The notes below the pieces were generated by a model. It was not told where the DNA came from and made no database searches. It saw nothing but the letters and a program-made list of their open reading frames with translations. A stretch of DNA of 64,000 nt from NCBI RefSeq assembly GCF_018604545.1, contig NZ_CP075896.1:5518001-5582000 (forward strand), written 5' to 3'. Origin of the DNA: Streptomyces koelreuteriae. Lineage in GTDB: Bacteria; Actinomycetota; Actinomycetes; Streptomycetales; Streptomycetaceae. A program made the translations under genes and the position numbers. The stretch's first letter is position 1; every line of letters begins with the position of its first letter. Shown piece by piece: positions 24,300 through 35,008 of this stretch.

Positions 24300-24662
24300 G
24301 GAGAGAAGCGAGCGAACGGCCCGGAAAGGCGGGTGGCCGAGCCCTGTGTGCGGTCATCGGCCCGTTGGCCTGCCGGGCGGCGTGGGCGTACGCGCCCGCA
24401 GCGAGCAGCACGCCGGGTGGGATCGGCGGCGATCGGAGCGTCTGGGCGCTTACGGAGGGTGTTGGTCCAGGCAGGGCGAGGTGCTGGTGGCCGAAGGGCT
24501 CCGATCGGCCATCTATGAGGCGTGAGGCATCCGGCTGGTGAGATACCCGCTCACGTTTCGAGAAGTTCGAGAAGAACGACCGGACCTTCCATACCTCGGC
24601 TGCCCGGCTACGAACCCCTAGTGAGGCAGAGCAGAAAAGTCGGCACCCGAGGGGGTTTTCTC
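24300..24662. other. Intergenic region before the Dap cluster
   Basis: 363 bp with no convincing gene. It holds dispersed GC palindromes (for example GGCGTGGGCGTACGCGCCCGC near 24384) and TTTCGAGAAGTTCGAGAAG near 24557-24575, a direct repeat of TTCGAGAAG. The promoter of the cluster must lie here. The ribosome-binding GAGGGGG at about 24649-24655 serves the first gene. Confidence 0.45.
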
Positions 24663-27149
24663 ATGGCGGGACAGCAGCTCCAGGAGGTGGTCAGGGGCTC
24701 CGTTGTCGCCGAGCGGTTCGCCGCGTTGCTGGCGGAGGTCGCTCATCTGGACGAGGTGCGGATCGACAGCGACTTCTTCGATGATCTCGGCGCCGACTCC
24801 CTGGTGATGGCGCACTTCTGCGCACGGGTGCGGAACCTGCCCGACCTGCCGGCGGTGTCGATGCGGGACGTGTACCGGCATCCGACCGCCGGGGGACTGG
24901 CGGCCGCACTGGTCGACAGCACCCCGCGACCGCCGGTCGAAACCGGGGTGCCCAGTCCATCGGGACTGCCCAGGGCACCGGTGACAACACCGGTGCCGCC
25001 GACCGGCCGCCCGCACCGTGTGCTGTGCGGGGCGCTGCAGATGCTGGCCTTCCTCGGTTACTCCTTCCTTCTCGCCTTCGTCACCGCACAGGGCTACGAA
25101 TGGATCGCCGCGCAGGAGCATCTGCTCGACGCCTATCTACGGAGCGTCGTGTTCGGTGCCGCGCTGTTCGTCGTGCTGTGTGCCCTGCCCGTGGTCGCCA
25201 AGTGGGTGCTGATCGGCCGGTTCACGCCACGGCGGTTCCGCGTCTGGAGCCTCACCTACTTTCGGTTCTGGCTGGTCAAGACGCTGATCCGGTCGAGCCC
25301 GCTGGTCCTGTTCGCCGGATCGCCGCTCTACCCGCTCTATCTGAGGGCCCTGGGCGCGCGGATCGGCAAGGGCGTGACGATCCTGTCGCGCAGCGCCCCC
25401 GTCTGCACCGATCTGCTGTCTGTCGGTGACGGCACGCTCGTCCGCAAGGACGCGCTGCTCAGTTGCTACCGCGCGGTCGACGGTGTGATCGAGACGGGGC
25501 CGGTCACCCTGGGCCGGGGCGCGGTCGTGAGTGAGGTGACGGTGCTGGACATCGGGTCCCGGCTGGGGGACGGGGCCAGGCTCGCGCACGCGTCCTCCCT
25601 GCACACCGGGCAGACGGTCCCCGACGGTGAGCACTGGCACGGTTCCCCGGCCCAGCCGGCGGACGGGGCCTTTCCGGAGGTGGAGCCCGCCCGGTGCGGC
25701 ACCGCGCGGCGAGCGACGCACGGGGTTCTGATGCTGCTCACGGCGCTGCTGGTGTATCTGCCGCTCGCGGTGGGCTGCCTGGACGTGCTGCTCTCCCGGA
25801 TGCTGGAGGGATCCGCCGTGCTGAAGGGCGGGGCGACGGTGCTCTATGTCGACCTGCTGATCGTCACGGTCGTCGTCTTCTTCGGCGGGGTGCTCGCCGC
25901 GCTGGCGGTCCTGGCCACCGTCCCCCGGCTGCTGGGTAGCTTCGTACGGCCCGGCCGGACGTACCCGCTCTTCGGCTTCCGCCACACCGTGCACCGCACG
26001 ATCGTCCTGATGACGAACAGGAAGTCCCTGACCCGGCTGTTCGGCGACAGCACGTGCATCGTCCACTACCTGCGCTGGATCGGGTATCGCCTCTCACCTG
26101 TGGAGCAGACGGGCTCCAACTTCGGCACCCAGGTCAAGCACGAGAGCCCCTTCTTGAGCGCGGTGGGTACCGGGACCATGGTCGCCGACGGGTTGTCCCT
26201 GATGAACGCCGAGTACTCCAGTACGTCGTTCCGGCTGTCGCGGACCTCGATCGGGGCGCACAACTTCCTCGGGAACCGGATCGCCTACCCGGTGGGTGGG
26301 CGGACCGGCGACAACTGCCTGCTGGGTACGAAGGTGGCGATTCCCGTCAGCGGGCCGCTTCGGCACGATGTCGGACTGCTCGGCTCGCCCTGCTTCGAGA
26401 TCCCTCGGTCGGTGGCGCGGGACAGCACCTTCGACGAACTCAAGGACGGGAACGGTCTCGGCCGTCGCCTCGCGGCCAAGAACCGGCACAACGCCGTCAC
26501 CATGGCCTGGCACCTGCTCACGGGGTGGCTGTTCTTCTTCAGTGTGGTTCTGCTGTTCGCGCTCGCCGCGAGTCAGTACCCGGTGTGGGGCACGGCGGCC
26601 CTCGCGCTCGCCAACGCCCTCCTGCTGCCGTTCACCCTGGTGTACTACGTCCTCCTGGAGCGGGCCGTCACGGTGGTGCACCGGCCGGAGCCGCTGTTCT
26701 GCTCGATCTACGACCGCCGGTTCTGGGTTCGTGAGCGGTACTGGAAGGTGCCGTCCGAGACGTATCTGCACGTCCTCGACGGGACACCGTTCAAGAGCCT
26801 CGTCTGGCGGCTGCTCGGCGTGCGGATCGGGGCCCGGGTCTTCGACGACGGCTGCGCCGTGACCGAGCGGCCCATGGTCCGGATCGGGGACGACTGCACC
26901 CTCAACGCGGGCAGCGTCCTGCAGTGCCACTCCCAGGAGGACGGCACGTTCAAGTCGGACCGCAGCGCGCTCGGCGCCCGCTGCACCCTCGGCGTCGGAG
27001 CGTTCGTGCACTACGGCGTGACGGTCGGGGACGGTGCCGTGCTGACGGCGGACTCCTTCCTGATGAAGGGCGAGACGGTCCCCGAACACACCCGCTGGGC
27101 GGGCAATCCGGCCCGCCCCCTGGACGACGGCGACGGAGGTGCGTGGTGA
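24663..27149 (+). CDS. Pls-type membrane synthetase lacking an adenylation domain (T-TM-hexapeptide tandem; TIGR02353-like)
   Basis: Membrane protein of 828 aa; ATG 24663 follows GAGGGGG. Residues about 10-85 are a thiolation domain with the phosphopantetheine Ser46 in DDLGADSLVMAHF. Three pairs of membrane helices follow (about 118-185, 355-420, 615-667). They alternate with three soluble domains rich in left-handed beta-helix hexapeptides (RIGKGVTILSRS; TSIGAHNFLGN; VRIGDDCTLNAGSVLQ). This tail is the non-ribosomal peptide synthetase terminal domain of epsilon-poly-L-lysine synthetase (Pls), where the tandem C-domains catalyse iterative peptide bond formation at the membrane. Pls itself begins with an adenylation domain, which is absent here and encoded by the next gene, overlapping by ATGA. 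The predicted role is polymerising an amino acid supplied in trans. Confidence 0.9.
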   Translation: MAGQQLQEVVRGSVVAERFAALLAEVAHLDEVRIDSDFFDDLGADSLVMAHFCARVRNLPDLPAVSMRDVYRHPTAGGLAAALVDSTPRPPVETGVPSPSGLPRAPVTTPVPPTGRPHRVLCGALQMLAFLGYSFLLAFVTAQGYEWIAAQEHLLDAYLRSVVFGAALFVVLCALPVVAKWVLIGRFTPRRFRVWSLTYFRFWLVKTLIRSSPLVLFAGSPLYPLYLRALGARIGKGVTILSRSAPVCTDLLSVGDGTLVRKDALLSCYRAVDGVIETGPVTLGRGAVVSEVTVLDIGSRLGDGARLAHASSLHTGQTVPDGEHWHGSPAQPADGAFPEVEPARCGTARRATHGVLMLLTALLVYLPLAVGCLDVLLSRMLEGSAVLKGGATVLYVDLLIVTVVVFFGGVLAALAVLATVPRLLGSFVRPGRTYPLFGFRHTVHRTIVLMTNRKSLTRLFGDSTCIVHYLRWIGYRLSPVEQTGSNFGTQVKHESPFLSAVGTGTMVADGLSLMNAEYSSTSFRLSRTSIGAHNFLGNRIAYPVGGRTGDNCLLGTKVAIPVSGPLRHDVGLLGSPCFEIPRSVARDSTFDELKDGNGLGRRLAAKNRHNAVTMAWHLLTGWLFFFSVVLLFALAASQYPVWGTAALALANALLLPFTLVYYVLLERAVTVVHRPEPLFCSIYDRRFWVRERYWKVPSETYLHVLDGTPFKSLVWRLLGVRIGARVFDDGCAVTERPMVRIGDDCTLNAGSVLQCHSQEDGTFKSDRSALGARCTLGVGAFVHYGVTVGDGAVLTADSFLMKGETVPEHTRWAGNPARPLDDGDGGAW

Positions 27150-29602
27150 TGGCGGCGACAACGACCGAGGCCCGCGTCCCCGCGAGCGACAGCCGGGCTG
27201 ACGGCGGTTTCACGGCCGTGCCCCGGTGGGCGAAGGACCCGGTGCCCGGGAGTGGGGTGCAGGTCAGCCGTGTCCCCGGCGAGGTGACGGCCGCCCTGCG
27301 GGCGCGGGCCCGTGAACTCGGTGTGCCGTTCGCCGCGATTCTGCTCGCGGCCCACGCGAAGGTGCTGGCCCTGCTCTCCGGCGATCCCGAGGTGCGCAGC
27401 GGTTACCTCTCCCCGGCGGGGGCGGGGATCTTCGAGGTGACCGTCGGGCCCGGCACCTGGGGTGAGCTGGTGCGGGCGGCGGGGCGGGCCGAGTCGGAGG
27501 TGCCTGCGCCCGGGCCCGGGCCCGGGCCTGAGGTGGTCTTTGCCCCTACAGGGCAGGAGGTCGTCGTCCCGTCGGTAGGCGACGGCGGCCCGCTGCTCGG
27601 CGTATCGGCAGGTGAGGACAACGGCCGGCTCGTGCTGCGGCTGCGGCACCGGACCGATCTGCTGGACGCCGACTGTGCCGCGCGGATCGGGGGGTACCAC
27701 CTCGCCGCGCTGGAGGCGATCGCCGCCGACCCCGACTCCCGCCACGACCTGGGCAGCCTGCTGTCCGCGGACGAACTCCGGTTCCAGCTCGACGAGCTGG
27801 GGGCTGGGCCGCGCCGGGCGCTGCCGGACCGTCGGTTCCATGAACTGTTCGAGGAGCGGGTGCGCCGGAATCCGGACGCCGTCGCCGTGGTTCAGCAGGG
27901 CCGCCGCCTCACGTACGCGGACCTCAATGCCCGGGCCAACCGGGCGGCCCGTGCCCTGCTGGCCGAGGGGCTCGGTCCTGAGGGCACGGTCGCCGTGGTG
28001 ACCGAGCGGGACCTCCACTGGGCGGTCGGTGTGCTCGGTGTCCTCAAGGCCGGTGGTGTGTATCTGCCTGTCGACCCGCATCATCCGCCCGGCCGCATCG
28101 GCGCGATGCTGACCCGCGCCGAGTGTGGGTACGTCCTCACCGAACCCGGCAGCACCGGGCGGCTGGACCGGGCGCTCGAGACGCTTCCCGGAATCCGGCG
28201 GCTGCTCGTCCCGGACCTCGCGGACGGGGCCGGCGACGGAACGGACCTCGGCCTGGACATAGCGGCGGACCGGCTCGCGTACGTCTTCTTCACCTCCGGG
28301 TCCACCGGGGAGCCGAAGGGCGCGCTGTGCGAGCACGCCGGGCTGCTCAACCATCTGTACGCCAAGATCGACGATCTGGGCATCGGCGAGGGCACCGTGG
28401 TGGCGCAGACGGCCTCGCAGTGCTTCGACATCTCGCTGTGGCAGCTGCTCGCCGGGCTGCTGACCGGTGGGCGGACCCTGCTGGTCGAGCAGGACGCCAT
28501 CCTCGACGCGGACCGGTTCCTGGACCGGATCGCCGGAGGACGCGTCAACGTCCTGCAAGTCGTGCCGTCGTATCTCGACGTCATCCTGTCCGCGCTGGAA
28601 CGCGTCCCCCGGGACCTGCCCGATCTGCGGTGTGTGTCCGTCACCGGCGAGGCGTTGCGCGGTGAGCTGGTCCAGCGGTGGTTCGCGGGCGGGCCCGCTG
28701 TGCGTCTGGTGAACGCCTATGGGCTGACCGAGACGTCCGACGACACCCACCACGAGGTGATGGACCGGGCGCCCGCCGGTGACCGGATCCCGATCGGGCG
28801 GCCCATCGCCAACGTGCACCAGTACGTCGTCGACGAGAACCTGCTTCCGGTGCCGCTCGGCGCGCCCGGTGCCATCGTGTTCTCCGGGGTGTGCGTGGGG
28901 CGCGGCTATGTCAACGACGCCGAACGCACCGCGCAGTCCTATCTGGAGGACCCCCACCGGCCCGGCCGACGGCTCTACCGGGGAGGCGACTTCGGCCGCT
29001 GGCGGCCCGACGGCAAGCTGGAGTTCCTCGGTCGCCGGGACGCGCAGGTCAAGATCCGGGGGTTCCGGGTCGAGATCGGCGAGGTCGAGAACACGCTGCT
29101 GCGGGTGCCCGGCGTCACGGACTGCGCGGTCGTGGTGAGTGGAGTGGAAGGGCACGGACGGCAGTTGGCCGCCTTCTGTGCGGGCGGCGGTGCGGTGAGC
29201 GCAGAGGAGCTGCGGGAGCGGCTCGCTGATCTGCTCCCCGCGTACATGGTCCCGGCGTCCTTCCACCGGCTGGACCGTCTGCCGCTCACCGCCAACGGCA
29301 AGACCGACCGCAAGGCGCTCGTGGCGCTCGCCGAGGACCTCGGCCCGGCCCGGGAATCCGGCGGCGCCCCGCGGACACCGGCCGAACGGCGGCTCGCGGC
29401 GCGCTGGGAGGCGGAACTCGGCCTGCCGCCCGGGCGGATCCGCCGCGACGACGACTTCTTCGACCTGGGCGGCACGTCCCTGACGGCGGTACGGCTCGCG
29501 GTCTCGCTGGACCGGGTGATCTCGCCGCGCGACCTCACGGGCCACCCCGTCCTGGCCGACCTGGCCCACCTGATCGACACCCGTACGAGTCACGAGAGGT
29601 GA
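27149..29602 (+). CDS. NRPS-like protein: condensation remnant, adenylation, thiolation
   Basis: Protein of 817 aa overlapping the previous stop (ATGA), with GGAGG nine bases upstream. Residues about 20-215 resemble only the C-terminal lobe of a condensation domain (FAAILLAAHAKVLALLSGD; LRLRHRTDLLDADCA), with no HHxxxDG motif. The adenylation domain spans about 225-725: FFTSGSTGEPKG (380-391), FDISLWQ (Asp427), NAYGLTETSDD, YRGGDFGRWRPDG, GRRDAQVKIRGFRVEIGEVE and Lys718 in ANGKTDRKAL. A thiolation domain ends the protein (Ser777 in GGTSLTAV). Manual alignment to GrsA gives the pocket code D-I-W-Q-S-T-A-D-D-K, whose acidic residues fit a basic diamino acid. It would activate L-2,3-diaminopropionate made by the neighbours and hand it to the Pls-like protein. 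Confidence 0.92.
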   Translation: MAATTTEARVPASDSRADGGFTAVPRWAKDPVPGSGVQVSRVPGEVTAALRARARELGVPFAAILLAAHAKVLALLSGDPEVRSGYLSPAGAGIFEVTVGPGTWGELVRAAGRAESEVPAPGPGPGPEVVFAPTGQEVVVPSVGDGGPLLGVSAGEDNGRLVLRLRHRTDLLDADCAARIGGYHLAALEAIAADPDSRHDLGSLLSADELRFQLDELGAGPRRALPDRRFHELFEERVRRNPDAVAVVQQGRRLTYADLNARANRAARALLAEGLGPEGTVAVVTERDLHWAVGVLGVLKAGGVYLPVDPHHPPGRIGAMLTRAECGYVLTEPGSTGRLDRALETLPGIRRLLVPDLADGAGDGTDLGLDIAADRLAYVFFTSGSTGEPKGALCEHAGLLNHLYAKIDDLGIGEGTVVAQTASQCFDISLWQLLAGLLTGGRTLLVEQDAILDADRFLDRIAGGRVNVLQVVPSYLDVILSALERVPRDLPDLRCVSVTGEALRGELVQRWFAGGPAVRLVNAYGLTETSDDTHHEVMDRAPAGDRIPIGRPIANVHQYVVDENLLPVPLGAPGAIVFSGVCVGRGYVNDAERTAQSYLEDPHRPGRRLYRGGDFGRWRPDGKLEFLGRRDAQVKIRGFRVEIGEVENTLLRVPGVTDCAVVVSGVEGHGRQLAAFCAGGGAVSAEELRERLADLLPAYMVPASFHRLDRLPLTANGKTDRKALVALAEDLGPARESGGAPRTPAERRLAARWEAELGLPPGRIRRDDDFFDLGGTSLTAVRLAVSLDRVISPRDLTGHPVLADLAHLIDTRTSHER

Positions 29603-29609
29603 GATCGAC

Positions 29610-30596
29610 ATGCTGTCGGCACTCTTCCGCAAGAACAGGGCCACCACGACAGAGACGACGGACGGTTTTCCGGTACTCGATGCCGAAGACATTCCGGATG
29701 CCCGGGCCGCGCTGCGCGAGCTCGTCGGCGAGCACGGGGCGGTCACCGTCCGGGGGCTCGGCCTGCGGACCCCGGACGACGTCGAGTCGGTCCTCCGCCG
29801 GGTCGCCGAGCGTCCCGTGACCGAGCGGGAGGCGTTCGCCGCCCGTGACCGCCACGCGGACGGCGTCTACTCGTCGTCGGCGTGGCCGCCCACCCAGCCC
29901 ATGTGCATGCACCATGAACTCAGCTACGCCGTCGAGTGTCCCGGCCTGCTGCTGTTCGCCTGCCTGGAGCCGCCCGTCGAAGGCGGTGCCACCGCCCTGG
30001 CCGACGCGACCGCGGTGCTGCGGGCGTTGCCCGGCGACCTCGTCGACCGCTTCGCCCGGGAGGGCTGGCTGCTCACCCGGGCCTACAACGAGGGGATCGG
30101 CGCGACACTCGGTCAGTCCTTCGGCACCGACGACCGCGGCGAGGTCGAGGCCTACTGCCGTGCCCACGCGATCGACTGGTCCTGGCGGCCGGACGGTTCG
30201 CTGCGGACCTGGCAGCACCGGCCCGCCGTCGTACGGCACCCGGTCTCCGGCCGGGACTGCTGGTTCAACCAGATCGCGTTCCTGAACGAGTGGACGATGG
30301 CGCCCGAGGTCAGGGAGTTCCTGATCGACGAGTACGGCCCCGACGGCCTGCCCTTCAACACCCGTTACGGCAACGGCGACCCGGTGCCCCCGGACGTCGT
30401 CGAGCAGATCAACAAGACCTACGAGACCCACACCGTACGGCGGCCCTGGGAACGCGGTGACCTGATGCTCGTGGACAACGTCCGCACCGCGCACAGCCGG
30501 GAGGCGTACCGGGGGCCGAGGGACGTCGTGGTGGCGATGGCCGACCCCGTGCGTCTTGGCCTGCCGGGACCGCGGCCGGGGAGGGAAGCGGCATGA
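29610..30596 (+). CDS. Iron(II)/2-oxoglutarate-dependent oxygenase, TauD/SyrP/AsnO-like
   Basis: Non-haem iron oxygenase of 328 aa. The iron-binding triad is visible as His101-x-Glu103 in MCMHHELSYA and His295 in DNVRTAHSREAYRGPRD, with the 2-oxoglutarate-binding Arg a few residues later. The H-x-E form (rather than H-x-D) and the MHHELSYA context match the SyrP/AsnO/VioC group, which hydroxylate amino acids free or bound to a carrier protein. ATG 29610 lies 8 bases after the NRPS stop, and its own stop overlaps the next ATG. It probably modifies the activated monomer, the growing chain, or an undetected second substrate. Confidence 0.92.
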   Translation: MLSALFRKNRATTTETTDGFPVLDAEDIPDARAALRELVGEHGAVTVRGLGLRTPDDVESVLRRVAERPVTEREAFAARDRHADGVYSSSAWPPTQPMCMHHELSYAVECPGLLLFACLEPPVEGGATALADATAVLRALPGDLVDRFAREGWLLTRAYNEGIGATLGQSFGTDDRGEVEAYCRAHAIDWSWRPDGSLRTWQHRPAVVRHPVSGRDCWFNQIAFLNEWTMAPEVREFLIDEYGPDGLPFNTRYGNGDPVPPDVVEQINKTYETHTVRRPWERGDLMLVDNVRTAHSREAYRGPRDVVVAMADPVRLGLPGPRPGREAA

Positions 30597-31666
30597 CCAC
30601 ACTGCACACCGTCCCGCAGACCGCCATGGCGGACACGGACACCCCGGTGGTGCCGTCCTTCGCCGTCATCCCCGGAAGCCAGGTCAAGGAGGTGCTCCAG
30701 GGCCGGGAGAAGACCGTCGTGGACGTCGTCGAGTCGACGTACCGCCTGCACGGCTCCGGCCGTACGGTCAATCCGCCGTCCTCCTTCCTGCGCTTCCCCG
30801 ACCGGCCGACGGCGCGGATCATCGCCCTGCCCGCCTCCCTCGGCGGTGAGGGCCGGGCGGACGGTCTGAAATGGATCTCCAGCTTCCCCGCCAACGTCGC
30901 CTCGGGCATCCCCCGCGCGTCCGCCGTCCTCATCCTCAACGACCCCGTCACGGGCTACCCCTTCGCCTGCATGGAGAGCTCGATCATCAGCGCCGCCAGG
31001 ACCGCCGCGTCCGCCGCGTCGGCCGCCGACCGGCTCAGCAGGGGACGGCCGCGCCCGGCCCGGCTGGGGTTCGTCGGGGCGGGGCTGATCGCCCGTTACA
31101 TCCACACCTATCTGGAGGGCACCGGCTGGTCCTTCGACGCCATCGGCGTGCACGACCTGTCGCCCGACAGCGCCGCGGGCTTCCGCACCTACCTGGAGCA
31201 GTCCGGGGCCGTCGGACGCGTCACCGTGCACGGCAGCGCCGAGGAACTGATCCGCCTCAGCGACCTGATCGTCTTCGCCACGGTCGCCGACCGGCCGCAC
31301 ATCACCGAGCCGGCGTGGTTCCGGCACAACCCGGTGGTGCTGCACGTGTCGCTGCGCGACCTCGCCCCCGAGGTGCTGCTCGGCGCCACCAACGTCGTCG
31401 ACGACATCGACCACTGCCTGCGGGCCGCCACCTCACCGCACCTCACCGAACGCCTCACCGGCAACCGCGACTTCCTGCTCGGCACGCTCGACGATGTGAT
31501 GGCGGGCCGGGTGACGGTCCCGGCCGGGCGTCCGGTGGTCTTCTCACCGTTCGGGCTGGGCGTGCTGGACCTCGCGGTCGGCGCCTACGTCTACGACGAA
31601 GTGGCCCGCTCCGGCCAATTGCGGGTCATCGACCACTTCTTTCACGAACTGAGCCGGCACGGCTGA
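30593..31666 (+). CDS. sbnB: SbnB-like N-(1-amino-1-carboxy-2-ethyl)glutamate dehydrogenase (2,3-diaminopropionate biosynthesis)
   Basis: Ornithine cyclodeaminase-superfamily enzyme of 357 aa. Family signs are KWISSFPANVASGIPRASAV, CMESSIISAARTAASAASAA and the Rossmann motif GFVGAGLIARYI near residue 158. The version next to an SbnA-like gene is the L-Dap pathway dehydrogenase: it oxidatively cleaves the SbnA product ACEGA with NAD to L-2,3-diaminopropionate and 2-oxoglutarate. The 2-oxoglutarate could directly feed the preceding oxygenase. It overlaps that gene by ATGA. Ornithine cyclodeaminase itself is less likely given the partner. Confidence 0.92.
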   Translation: MTTLHTVPQTAMADTDTPVVPSFAVIPGSQVKEVLQGREKTVVDVVESTYRLHGSGRTVNPPSSFLRFPDRPTARIIALPASLGGEGRADGLKWISSFPANVASGIPRASAVLILNDPVTGYPFACMESSIISAARTAASAASAADRLSRGRPRPARLGFVGAGLIARYIHTYLEGTGWSFDAIGVHDLSPDSAAGFRTYLEQSGAVGRVTVHGSAEELIRLSDLIVFATVADRPHITEPAWFRHNPVVLHVSLRDLAPEVLLGATNVVDDIDHCLRAATSPHLTERLTGNRDFLLGTLDDVMAGRVTVPAGRPVVFSPFGLGVLDLAVGAYVYDEVARSGQLRVIDHFFHELSRHG

Positions 31667-31710
31667 GGGCGAAACCCGTCCTCCGGCCGGCCCCGTACGA
31701 GGAGAACATC

Positions 31711-32697
31711 GTGCCTGTCATTTCCGTACCCCACGCCTTCAACGAGGAGGACCTGTACGTCGACCTCCAGCCGATGACGGGACACCGGCTCTTCCTCAAG
31801 TGCGAGGGCTTCAACTTCGCCGGTTCGATCAAACTGAAGGCCGCCACCGAGATGGTGGAGTCCGCCGAGCGCGGTGGAACCCTCAAGCGGGACTCGATCC
31901 TGGTCGAGTCCTCCTCCGGCAACCTCGGCGTCGCGCTGAGCATGATCGCCGCGAGCAAGGGCTACCGCTTCGTCTGTGTGACGGACTCCCGGTGCAACCT
32001 CGCCACCCGGCTGATGATGGAGGCCCTGGGCAGCCAGGTCCACGTCGTCTCCGACGAGCACGCCACCGGCGGTCTGCTGGGCGCGCGGCTGGCGTACCTG
32101 CGTGCCCTGTGCGCCTCGGACGACCGCTATGTGTGGCTGAGTCAGTACACCAACCCCGACAACTGGCGGGCGCACTACTTCCGCACGGCCCCGGCCATCG
32201 CCCGCTGGTTCCCGCGCCTGGACGTCCTGTTCATCGGCGTCGGCACGACCGGCACGCTGATGGGCTGCGCCCGCTGGTTCCGTTCCTGGCACCGGCCGGT
32301 GCGGATCGTCGCGGTGGACAGCGTCGGTTCCGCCATCTTCGGCGACCCGCCCGGACGGCGGATGATCCCCGGCCTCGGCATGAGCCTCAGGCCTCCGCTG
32401 CTCGACGACGGTTACGTCGACGAGGCGGTGCGTGTCGAGGAGGCCGACGCCATCCGCACCTGCCGGACCATGGCGAGGCAGGGCTTCCTGTTCGGCGGGT
32501 CGACCGGCACGGTCGTCAGCGGGGCGACGAACTGGCTGGCCCGGCACGGAGCTCCGGGCCTCACGCCCGTCGCGATCGCCCCGGACCTCGGCGAGCGCTA
32601 TCTCGACACGATCTACCAGAGCAACTGGGTGGAGGCCCTGTACGGCGACGAGGTGATCACGGACCCCCGCGCCGTGGGGACGGCGCCCTCCGACTGA
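31711..32697 (+). CDS. sbnA: SbnA-like PLP enzyme, O-phosphoserine:glutamate ligase step (2,3-diaminopropionate biosynthesis)
   Basis: Cysteine synthase-like PLP enzyme of 328 aa. GTG 31711 follows AGGAG. The Schiff-base Lys41 lies in NFAGSIKLKAA, the substrate loop is SSSGNLGVAL, and the phosphate-binding loop is GVGTTGTLMG with GGSTGTVVSG towards the C-terminus. NFAGSIK replaces the usual N-P-(G/T)-S-x-K-D of cysteine synthases, as in SbnA, which condenses O-phospho-L-serine with L-glutamate to ACEGA for SbnB. It is 44 bp downstream of sbnB, with a fresh ribosome-binding site. Together the two genes supply L-Dap. Confidence 0.92.
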   Translation: MPVISVPHAFNEEDLYVDLQPMTGHRLFLKCEGFNFAGSIKLKAATEMVESAERGGTLKRDSILVESSSGNLGVALSMIAASKGYRFVCVTDSRCNLATRLMMEALGSQVHVVSDEHATGGLLGARLAYLRALCASDDRYVWLSQYTNPDNWRAHYFRTAPAIARWFPRLDVLFIGVGTTGTLMGCARWFRSWHRPVRIVAVDSVGSAIFGDPPGRRMIPGLGMSLRPPLLDDGYVDEAVRVEEADAIRTCRTMARQGFLFGGSTGTVVSGATNWLARHGAPGLTPVAIAPDLGERYLDTIYQSNWVEALYGDEVITDPRAVGTAPSD

Positions 32698-32709
32698 CCG
32701 AGGACGGTC

Positions 32710-33408
32710 ATGCGTCCCGAGCGGCTGACATCCGCCGCCTGGGCCCGGCCTCCGGAGCCGCCCCGCCCCGGCCGGCCCCGCGTGTGGCTGGCCCGGGTGG
32801 AGGAACTCCGCGACATCGTGGCCCCGCTCGCCGACACACTGCTGGACGGCGGGGAACGGGCACGGGCCGCGGCACTGCGCCGGGCGGCGGACCGGGACGG
32901 CTACCGGGTCGCCCATGTGTGCCTGCGCCTGCTCCTCGGCGCCCACCTCCAAGTCGAGCCGTCGGACGTGACGTTCGTACGGCGACCCTGCCCGGTCTGC
33001 GGGGGCCCGCACGGGCGTCCCGACGTGCCCGGCGTGCCCCTGTGCTTCTCCCTCTCCCGCACCGACGGACTCTGCCTCCTCGCCTTCGCGGACACGGCGG
33101 TCGGCGCGGACATCGAGCGGCTGCCCGACGCGGACACCGTCGCCGCCCTCACGGAGACGCTGCACCCCCGAGAGGCCGACGAACTCGCCGCGTACCCGCC
33201 CGACCTGCGCCCCGCCGCCTTCGCCCGTGTGTGGACCCGCAAGGAGGCCTATCTGAAAGGGCTCGGCACCGGACTCGCACGCGATCCACGCCTCGATCAC
33301 CTCGGCGCGGGTGCGCGGGGGCCGCGCCGGATGCCGGGCTGGACGGTCGAAGACGTGACGTTGGGAGAGGAGGAGGCGGCGGCCGCCGTGGCGGTGGCTG
33401 AGCGGTAA
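32710..33408 (+). CDS. Sfp-type 4'-phosphopantetheinyl transferase
   Basis: Protein of 232 aa that would load phosphopantetheine onto Ser46 of the Pls-like protein and Ser777 of the NRPS. It has the Sfp motifs VGADIERL (Mg-binding) and FARVWTRKEAYLKGLGTGL (W..KEA..K), preceded by PLCFSLSRTDGLCLLAF, and a Cys-rich turn RPCPVCGGPHGRP. ATG 32710 is 12 bases after the sbnA stop. Last gene of the cluster; its final codons run into the 21-bp minisatellite. Confidence 0.93.
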   Translation: MRPERLTSAAWARPPEPPRPGRPRVWLARVEELRDIVAPLADTLLDGGERARAAALRRAADRDGYRVAHVCLRLLLGAHLQVEPSDVTFVRRPCPVCGGPHGRPDVPGVPLCFSLSRTDGLCLLAFADTAVGADIERLPDADTVAALTETLHPREADELAAYPPDLRPAAFARVWTRKEAYLKGLGTGLARDPRLDHLGAGARGPRRMPGWTVEDVTLGEEEAAAAVAVAER

Positions 33409-33668
33409 CTGTCATGCAGGGGGCGGTGGCTGTCACGCCCGGGACTGGTGGCTGTCACGCCGGGGACGGTGACTGCCAGGCCGGGACCGCTGACCCCCCC
33501 CCGGGGCCGGTCGCCGGACGGTGACCGGTCCCGGGGGGCCCGTTCATGCCGGGAAAGGTGGCCGCGCCGCCATCGCGGTGGCCGAGCAGTGACCGTACTC
33601 CGGACCGCTGACCGTCACGCCGGGGACGGTGACCGTCAGGCCGGGATCGCTGACCCTCACGCCGGGAC
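33402..33668 (+). repeat. Degenerate 21-bp minisatellite between convergent genes
   Basis: Units of the form GGTGRCYGTCACGCCGGGGAC recur with an exact 21-bp period at 33447-33467, 33468-33488 and again at 33607-33627, 33628-33648 and 33649-33668, with degraded copies between. The array reaches into the last codons of both flanking genes. A block at 33566-33596 resembles the 3' end of the transferase gene (33382-33412) at about 25 of 31 positions, as if that gene end had been duplicated into the array. A run of nine C lies near 33496. Confidence 0.85.
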
Positions 33669-34400
33669 GGAGATGACGCCGACCGGGTCGGTCGTGGGCT
33701 GGCGGGAGCCGCCTGATGGTTCCACCGTGACGCAGACGGCCGTGGCCCCGCCGAGGCGGCCGTCCAGGACGTACGCCTGGCGTCCGCCCGACCCTGACAC
33801 CAGTCCGGCCGGCCGGAACTGCCCCGGTCGGGCGTACCAGAGTTGGTAGACCTGGTCGTCGGTGAGCGGCGGCAGCCCGGAGGCGATGAACGCGGACTGT
33901 CCCTGCGCCCGGGAGGCGATCACACTCGCGGTGCCGCCGCGCGCGAGCTCACCCGTGCTGATCGTGGCGTCGGGCGCGGCCAGGACATCGGCGAGCTGCC
34001 GGTATCCGGCACGGTCCTGGGCGGCCTCCTCGCGCGCGGAGTCGGCCTCCGAGCTCTGCCACCAGGCGATGCCGCCGAGGGCCGCTGCCGCCGCCAGGGA
34101 CGCCGCCAGCGCCAGCCGGAGAGCCCGTTGCCCACGGCGTCGCCGCCGGGCCTGTGCCGCGACGGTCCGGTCCTGGGGTACGGCCGCGATCCGCTCCAGC
34201 ACCCGGCGGCGCAGGTCCGCAGGGGGTGTGCTCGTCTCTGTCGCCCCCATCGCGACGGCCGCCCCGGAGGCCTGATCGACCTCCGCACGGCAGGAGGCGC
34301 AGTCGGCCAGGTGCTCCTCGAACGCGGCTCTCTCACCGGCCGGCAGCGCGTGCAGCACATACGCGCCGACAGCGAGGTGGGGATCGTCGGTGAGGTTCAC
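33657..34400 (-). CDS. Zinc-binding anti-sigma factor, RskA-like
   Basis: Anti-sigma protein of 247 aa. The N-terminal ZAS domain has AGERAAFEEHLADCASC, that is His-x3-Cys-x2-Cys. A membrane helix covers about residues 97-115 (ALAASLAAAAALGGIAWW). The extracytoplasmic C-terminal part matches the RskA domain (LPPLTDDQVYQLWYARPGQ; GATAVCVTVEPSGGS). The GTG start at 34400 overlaps the sigma-factor stop as GTGA, so the pair is coupled. It holds the ECF sigma factor at the membrane until an extracellular or redox signal releases it. Its last codon lies inside the minisatellite. Confidence 0.94.
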   Translation of the reverse strand: MNLTDDPHLAVGAYVLHALPAGERAAFEEHLADCASCRAEVDQASGAAVAMGATETSTPPADLRRRVLERIAAVPQDRTVAAQARRRRRGQRALRLALAASLAAAAALGGIAWWQSSEADSAREEAAQDRAGYRQLADVLAAPDATISTGELARGGTASVIASRAQGQSAFIASGLPPLTDDQVYQLWYARPGQFRPAGLVSGSGGRQAYVLDGRLGGATAVCVTVEPSGGSRQPTTDPVGVISVPA

Positions 34401-35008
34401 GAGCCGGCCTCCATACAGTCGTGCAGACGCCGCAGCCCCTGACGCATCCGCGACTTGACGGTGCCGGCCGGCATCGAGAGGGCCTCGGCGACCTCCGCGT
34501 AGGTCAGCCCCTCGTAGTAGGCCAGCACCAGCGGCAGCCTCAGTTCGCGGGTCAGTTCGGTCAGGCAGCGGAAGACGACCCGCTGCTCCTCCCGCGTCTC
34601 GACCTCCTCGGCGACGGTGTCGAAGGACCGCTCCTGCTCCCGGACGGCGGCGCGCAGCTCGCGTGCGCGGCCCGCGGCGACGGACCGGACCCGGTCCACC
34701 GCGCGGCGGTGCGCGAGGGTGAGGACCCAGTTCCGGGCGGCCCCGCGCGCCGGCCGGAACCGGTCGGCGGTCCGCCACACCTCCACCATCACGTCCTGGG
34801 TCACCTCCTCCGCCTGCGCCTTGTCCCGGATCACGCGGGTGGCCAGTCCCAGCACCGTGTGCGCCAGGGCGTCGTACAGTTCGGCGAAGGCCTCCTCGTC
34901 GCCGTCGGCGGCGCGGACGAGCAGCCGGTCCAGGCCGGGGTCGTCCGCGGCCGCCGTCCGTCCCCCTTGGGTGTCACCTTCCCTCTGGGCTCCGGCTCCT
35001 CGGTCCAT
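34397..35008 (-). CDS. ECF sigma factor, SigK-like
   Basis: Sigma factor of 203 aa: region 2 (EAFAELYDALAHTVLGLATR, EEVTQDVMVEVWRTADRFRP, then RNWVLTLAHRRAVDRVRS) and region 4 (LTRELRLPLVLAYYEGLTYAEVAEALSMPAGTVKSRM). ATG 35008 has GAGGAGG 4-5 bases upstream. It is cotranscribed with the RskA-like anti-sigma gene. In actinobacteria SigK/RskA pairs control envelope or redox responses. The regulon here is unknown; autoregulation is likely. Confidence 0.94.
   Translation of the reverse strand: MDRGAGAQREGDTQGGRTAAADDPGLDRLLVRAADGDEEAFAELYDALAHTVLGLATRVIRDKAQAEEVTQDVMVEVWRTADRFRPARGAARNWVLTLAHRRAVDRVRSVAAGRARELRAAVREQERSFDTVAEEVETREEQRVVFRCLTELTRELRLPLVLAYYEGLTYAEVAEALSMPAGTVKSRMRQGLRRLHDCMEAGS

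Follow-up and report, generated by a model that had tools for sequence, protein, structure and literature searches.

A six-gene operon on the + strand (24663-33408) of the 64,000-nucleotide stretch of Streptomyces koelreuteriae DNA analysed here (the window) encodes a Pls/PosA-family membrane synthetase without an adenylation (A) domain, PlsT, followed by an adenylation-carrier protein, AT, a TauD-family dioxygenase, SbnB, SbnA and a phosphopantetheinyl transferase (Table 1). With a probability of roughly 0.6, the best explanation is a two-protein 2,3-diaminopropionate (Dap) synthetase in which AT loads PlsT in trans, TauD oxidises Dap bound to the carrier of AT (T2), and PlsT polymerises. In this mechanism, SbnA and SbnB would supply L-Dap, and the A domain of AT would activate it and load both its own T2 and, in trans, the carrier of PlsT (T1). 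Dap on T2 would be oxidised by TauD, and the membrane beta-helix part of PlsT would form isopeptide bonds from T1-bound units, as in Pls, possibly also using modified units from T2.

Table 1. Genes of the operon in the window, with the parts of PlsT and AT
Feature	Position	Strand	Domains and evidence
PlsT, A-less Pls/PosA-family synthetase, 828 aa	24663..27149	+	PF00550, TIGR02353
PlsT parts			T1 18-83 (Ser46), then three times a TM-helix pair plus a left-handed beta-helix (AlphaFold2, Foldseek)
AT, 817 aa	27149..29602	+	Remnant C-domain C-lobe ~1-225, adenylation ~228-730, T2 748-809 (Ser777)
TauD/TfdA-family Fe(II)/2-oxoglutarate dioxygenase	29610..30596	+	PF02668, 143 bits
SbnB-type dehydrogenase for 2,3-diaminopropionate	30593..31666	+	TIGR03944; best solved relative 4m54
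SbnA-type PLP enzyme for 2,3-diaminopropionate	31711..32697	+	TIGR03945; best solved relative SbnA 5d87
4'-phosphopantetheinyl transferase	32710..33408	+	PF01648, 50 bits

PlsT opens with a PP-binding domain at residues 18-83 (Pfam PF00550, 34.8 bits, cut-off 20.8; active Ser46), which directly precedes the membrane part, as in Pls/PosA synthetases. The TIGR02353 model 'Pls/PosA family NRPS' spans residues 121-817 (733 bits, cut-off 423; model positions 1-695), and Pfam and TIGR profile searches of the chain gave no match to an AMP-binding domain. The original prediction, that the membrane chain starts with a thiolation domain and has no A domain, was thus borne out, and position 46 is Ser in 101/101 covered relatives. 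The nearest in-frame stop 5' of PlsT, at 24516, rules out that an A domain ahead of the gene had been overlooked or cut off by a frameshift, in line with what had been read from the sequence earlier.

The A domain expected in the next gene, with its own thiolation domain, was located by Pfam in AT (AMP-binding 234-587, AMP-binding_C 645-718, PP-binding 748-809), and position 777 is Ser in 89/89 AT relatives. At its N-terminus, AT shows similarity to NRPS condensation (C) domains over their C-terminal lobe only (McyA 207-453, E 1e-21), and the HHxxxDG condensation motif was found in 0/88 AT relatives within the first 260 residues. Unlike a canonical NRPS C-A-T module, AT has the C-lobe only, the catalytic lobe of condensation being absent. 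Neither this C-lobe nor the extent of the operon to 33408 had been part of the original prediction. No TE domain is present in the window AT. Among the 74 named relatives having AT, a TE with intact GHSSG ends the protein in 44, and 29 are without TE by a length test; a degenerate TE core (GDGSG, GDGEG, GYGSG) is seen in ATs nearer to the window lineage.

The stop of PlsT and the start of AT share one base (TGATG at 27147-27151), the stop of TauD and the start of SbnB share four, and AT and TauD are seven bases apart. Because of these overlaps and this short spacing, the operon is very likely co-transcribed and partly translationally coupled. Its phosphopantetheinyl transferase, a gene found at 9 of the 80 named loci, likely primes both T1 and T2. 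Adjoining the operon at 33657-35008 (- strand) are genes for an ECF sigma factor (SigK-like) and an anti-sigma factor. Similar sigma and anti-sigma gene clusters were detected in 29 and 26 of 100 loci examined, mostly at the 3' end, and since they recur beside such loci the pair may regulate the operon.

The distribution of the genes was surveyed in 199 Streptomyces genomes, and gene order was compared across 80 named relatives, most of them Streptomyces, alongside Actinacidiphila, Actinomadura and Pseudonocardia. A-less PlsT was found in 67 of the 199 genomes at 54-86% identity, and the fused A-T-Pls enzymes stand clearly apart at ~30% identity. This frequency rules out that the A-less PlsT arose from a chance splitting of the gene in a single strain. 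The co-occurrence is obligate: both AT and TauD are present in all 67 PlsT-bearing genomes, and PlsT and AT occur together in 67 genomes where 27 would be expected by chance. The oxygenase constantly, and the SbnA/SbnB Dap genes usually, accompany the PlsT-AT pair. All five genes lie in the fetched stretch at 70/80 named loci and are collinear as PlsT-AT-TauD-SbnB-SbnA at 67/80, contig ends truncating some of the loci without the complete order. AT is also found without PlsT in 14 genomes, where its neighbours are ordinary NRPS genes, together with TauD as a rule and often also with SbnB and SbnA; these ATs keep the pocket of the PlsT-linked ATs, with one exception in L193. At three loci (L178, L179 and L180), AT-TE-TauD-SbnB-SbnA lies beside an NRPS gene, a fused ligase-reductase-carrier gene, a second dioxygenase-like gene and genes for an ABC transporter; this appears to be a separate peptide cluster containing the same Dap module.

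The two proteins have different origins. In the tree of Pls domains, nearly all A-less proteins cluster together, and their nearest outgroup consists of the fused enzymes L049-L051 (pocket DFECLSVVTK) and L052 (DFWCLSVVTK). One outgroup enzyme adjoins genes read from the sequence as ectB-like and aspartokinase-like, a neighbourhood that would be expected for poly-diaminobutyrate. Poly-Dap/Dab synthetases have been reported to carry Phe as the second pocket residue (PMC10522769). The fused enzyme L169_12 of Pseudonocardia branches within the A-less group, but its branch is long, so that its placement is unsure. Pseudonocardia xinjiangensis (G199; L169, L170) has ~10 full-length Pls paralogues, A-less and fused, some of them in tandem. 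The window genome has a fused A-T-Pls paralogue as well (L001; G000:C1:6860533-6865563); its A domain is spread over two reading frames that overlap, suggesting a frameshift or a sequencing error.

In the A-domain tree, a split supported at 100/98 divides AT from the A domains of fused Pls, and within a wider AT family the members linked to PlsT form one clade (97/94). In the carriers of close fused Pls, the T1 profile scored 99-109 bits and the T2 profile 16-26 bits, so that T1 is a Pls-lineage carrier and T2 an AT-family carrier; both A and both T lineages are of separate descent. The A-domain tree and the carrier profiles indicate that PlsT lost its A domain and that an existing NRPS module took over. 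By descent, PlsT is a Pls from the branch of fused, poly-diaminobutyrate-like enzymes and has retained its own carrier; AT is a recruited NRPS module with decayed C and TE, and its relatives work in ordinary NRPS clusters. The same comparisons contradict the view that adenylation was 'moved' to a partner protein, or split from an ancestral Pls: it was replaced by a recruited module. With each carrier coming from its own lineage, the notion of two carriers for one monomer finds no support either.

The substrate was approached through the pocket of AT and the Dap genes. The ten-residue pocket DIWQSTADDK is present in 88/89 ATs. The PvdL pocket aligned to it (9lcq and others), DIWELTADDK, differs at 2/10 positions and belongs to a module that we take to be diaminobutyrate-activating. 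A further string, DVWQMIGDDK, is listed among Dab codes (PMC12283262). SbnB scored 405 bits against TIGR03944 (cut-off 327) and SbnA 370 bits against TIGR03945 (cut-off 350); because both exceed the curated cut-offs, L-Dap is most likely the monomer. Several PlsT-free AT clusters are without SbnA/SbnB, and the one examined, L192, encodes an SbnA-like enzyme, an argininosuccinate-lyase-like enzyme and an ATP-grasp protein, a set presumably associated with 2,3-diaminobutyrate. In AT relatives of such clusters, the same pocket may accept 2,3-diaminobutyrate, which counts against the Dap reading.

The triad H101-x-E103...H295 of TauD and R304 are invariant in all covered relatives. TauD accompanies AT in 80/81 genomes and is fused to it at four separate loci (L042, L177, L188, L193), and a fusion of TauD to PlsT alone was never found. 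Based on this co-occurrence and these fusions, TauD is mainly a companion of AT, which favours action on the T2-bound residue, and Dap held by the A-T carrier is its most likely target. Since hydroxylation of Dap at either of C2 and C3 yields a hemiaminal that is unstable, the chemistry may be desaturation or another reaction. The original prediction of a monomer modified on one carrier before polymerisation on the other may therefore hold, a modifier at the A-T carrier being plausible. That oxidised Dap moves on from T2 to the membrane synthetase, so that ~1/3 of Streptomyces would make an oxidised-diaminopropionate polymer, is a tentative extension, which we consider rather doubtful.

Several features of T2 count against the two-protein synthetase as proposed. 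T2 is retained throughout the AT relatives, although T1 would be loaded directly, and because the C domain is without its catalytic lobe, the system has no known enzyme for T2-to-T1 transfer. In addition, the intact TE of many AT relatives suggests that T2 may release its residue, which it could do instead of handing it over to PlsT. A possible, if clearly minor, alternative is accordingly a separate T2/TauD branch, in which modified Dap released by AT serves as an end cap or free acceptor and T1 receives plain Dap in trans, yielding a capped or mixed oligomer. The intact TE (GHSSG) in 44/74 relatives would allow such release, and the PlsT-free AT-TauD-SbnB-SbnA sets beside other NRPS genes and the restriction of TauD fusions to AT are consistent with it; however, the window AT has no TE and that of its nearer relatives is degenerate, so that release would need another enzyme.

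Whether PlsT polymerises at all was considered in the light of its predicted fold. The AlphaFold2 model (pLDDT 80, pTM 0.79) contains six long helices as three pairs (116-184, 347-425 and 596-672) with a beta-rich segment after each, and in Foldseek the beta-rich segments matched left-handed beta-helix, hexapeptide-repeat acyltransferases, e.g. maltose O-acetyltransferase. This fold agrees with the published model of PosA (PMC10522769). The earlier description 'six-helix tandem C domains' is broadly correct: six helices are present, and the segment after each pair resembles beta-helix acyltransferases. These matches would also suit a non-polymerising PlsT that transfers a single residue or caps a lipid or cell-wall acceptor, as beta-helix acyltransferases might. 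This is unlikely, since PlsT retains all three repeats and matches the Pls/PosA model over its full 695 positions, and characterised Pls/PosA members polymerise (PMC4668381, PMC10522769). An isopeptide homopolymer is the putative product.

Loading of PlsT by AT in trans is suggested by PlsT copies that have no AT nearby. These were found at 6/80 loci and at L048, with AT elsewhere in the genome in 7/7, and two of them (L048_7 and L113_6) have two tandem carrier domains each. On contig 87 of G144, TauD comes directly after PlsT, without an intervening AT. PlsT:AT copy numbers, some of them counted in draft genomes, are 3:1 in Actinacidiphila (G200), 5:3 in G276, 3:2 in G222 and 2:1 in G328. Given the orphan PlsT and the uneven copy numbers, trans-loading by AT is the simplest reading, and the predicted role of the A-T partner is likely, PlsT never occurring without AT. 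A single 2286-aa chain with the order T-Pls-(C lobe)-A-T-TauD is encoded at one locus (L047_5). That T1 is instead loaded by another genomic A domain, such as that of the fused A-T-Pls paralogue in the same genome (G000:C1:6862033), to give a two-monomer heteropolymer, is very improbable, because PlsT tracks AT in 67/67 genomes, the sole Pls match in G105 is a chain carrying its own A-T, and gene order and start/stop overlap tie PlsT to AT.

Characterised Pls-type enzymes select their monomer by a built-in A domain (PMC4668381, PMC10522769); here, the polymerising part is separate, is found as additional A-less copies within one genome, and acts beside a dioxygenase. The small soluble A-T protein makes carrier acceptance by a Pls membrane domain directly testable. 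The open-access papers searched gave no match for the exact AT pocket string or the gene set and no account of the arrangement, and an oxidised-diaminopropionate polymer, if it is made, would be of a type without description in the searched papers. The presence of the PlsT-AT pair in ~1/3 of the sampled Streptomyces points to a common, uncharacterised polymer family.

Among known systems, streptothricin is reportedly made with chain growth by a stand-alone A domain (Maruyama, 2012). Its ORF18 and ORF19, a carrier and a separate adenylation protein, likewise build a cationic isopeptide, but unlike here the accessible part of that account describes no Pls membrane part (PMC9606270). In capreomycin biosynthesis, CmnA-A1 loads CmnI in trans, so that an A-less NRPS component is served by the A domain of another protein; as far as the available portion of the source goes, CmnI is a conventional NRPS module and not a membrane polymerase (PMC12400406). 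The epsilon-poly-L-lysine Pls and PosA share with PlsT the three TM-pair plus beta-helix repeats, but have a fused A domain with an Asp-x-Glu pocket (PMC10522769), whereas the AT pocket starts D-I-W and belongs to another A-domain lineage. The PDAP synthetase of Streptomyces albulus PD-1 resembles the present system in its Pls-type membrane part, its activation of L-Dap and a monomer supply from cysteine-synthase-like and ornithine-cyclodeaminase-like enzymes; according to the accessible sections of its report, its A, T and membrane parts form one chain of 4,338 bp, with no dioxygenase mentioned there (PMC4668381). Here, by contrast, the A domain is on a separate, non-Pls protein, accompanied by a second carrier and by TauD.
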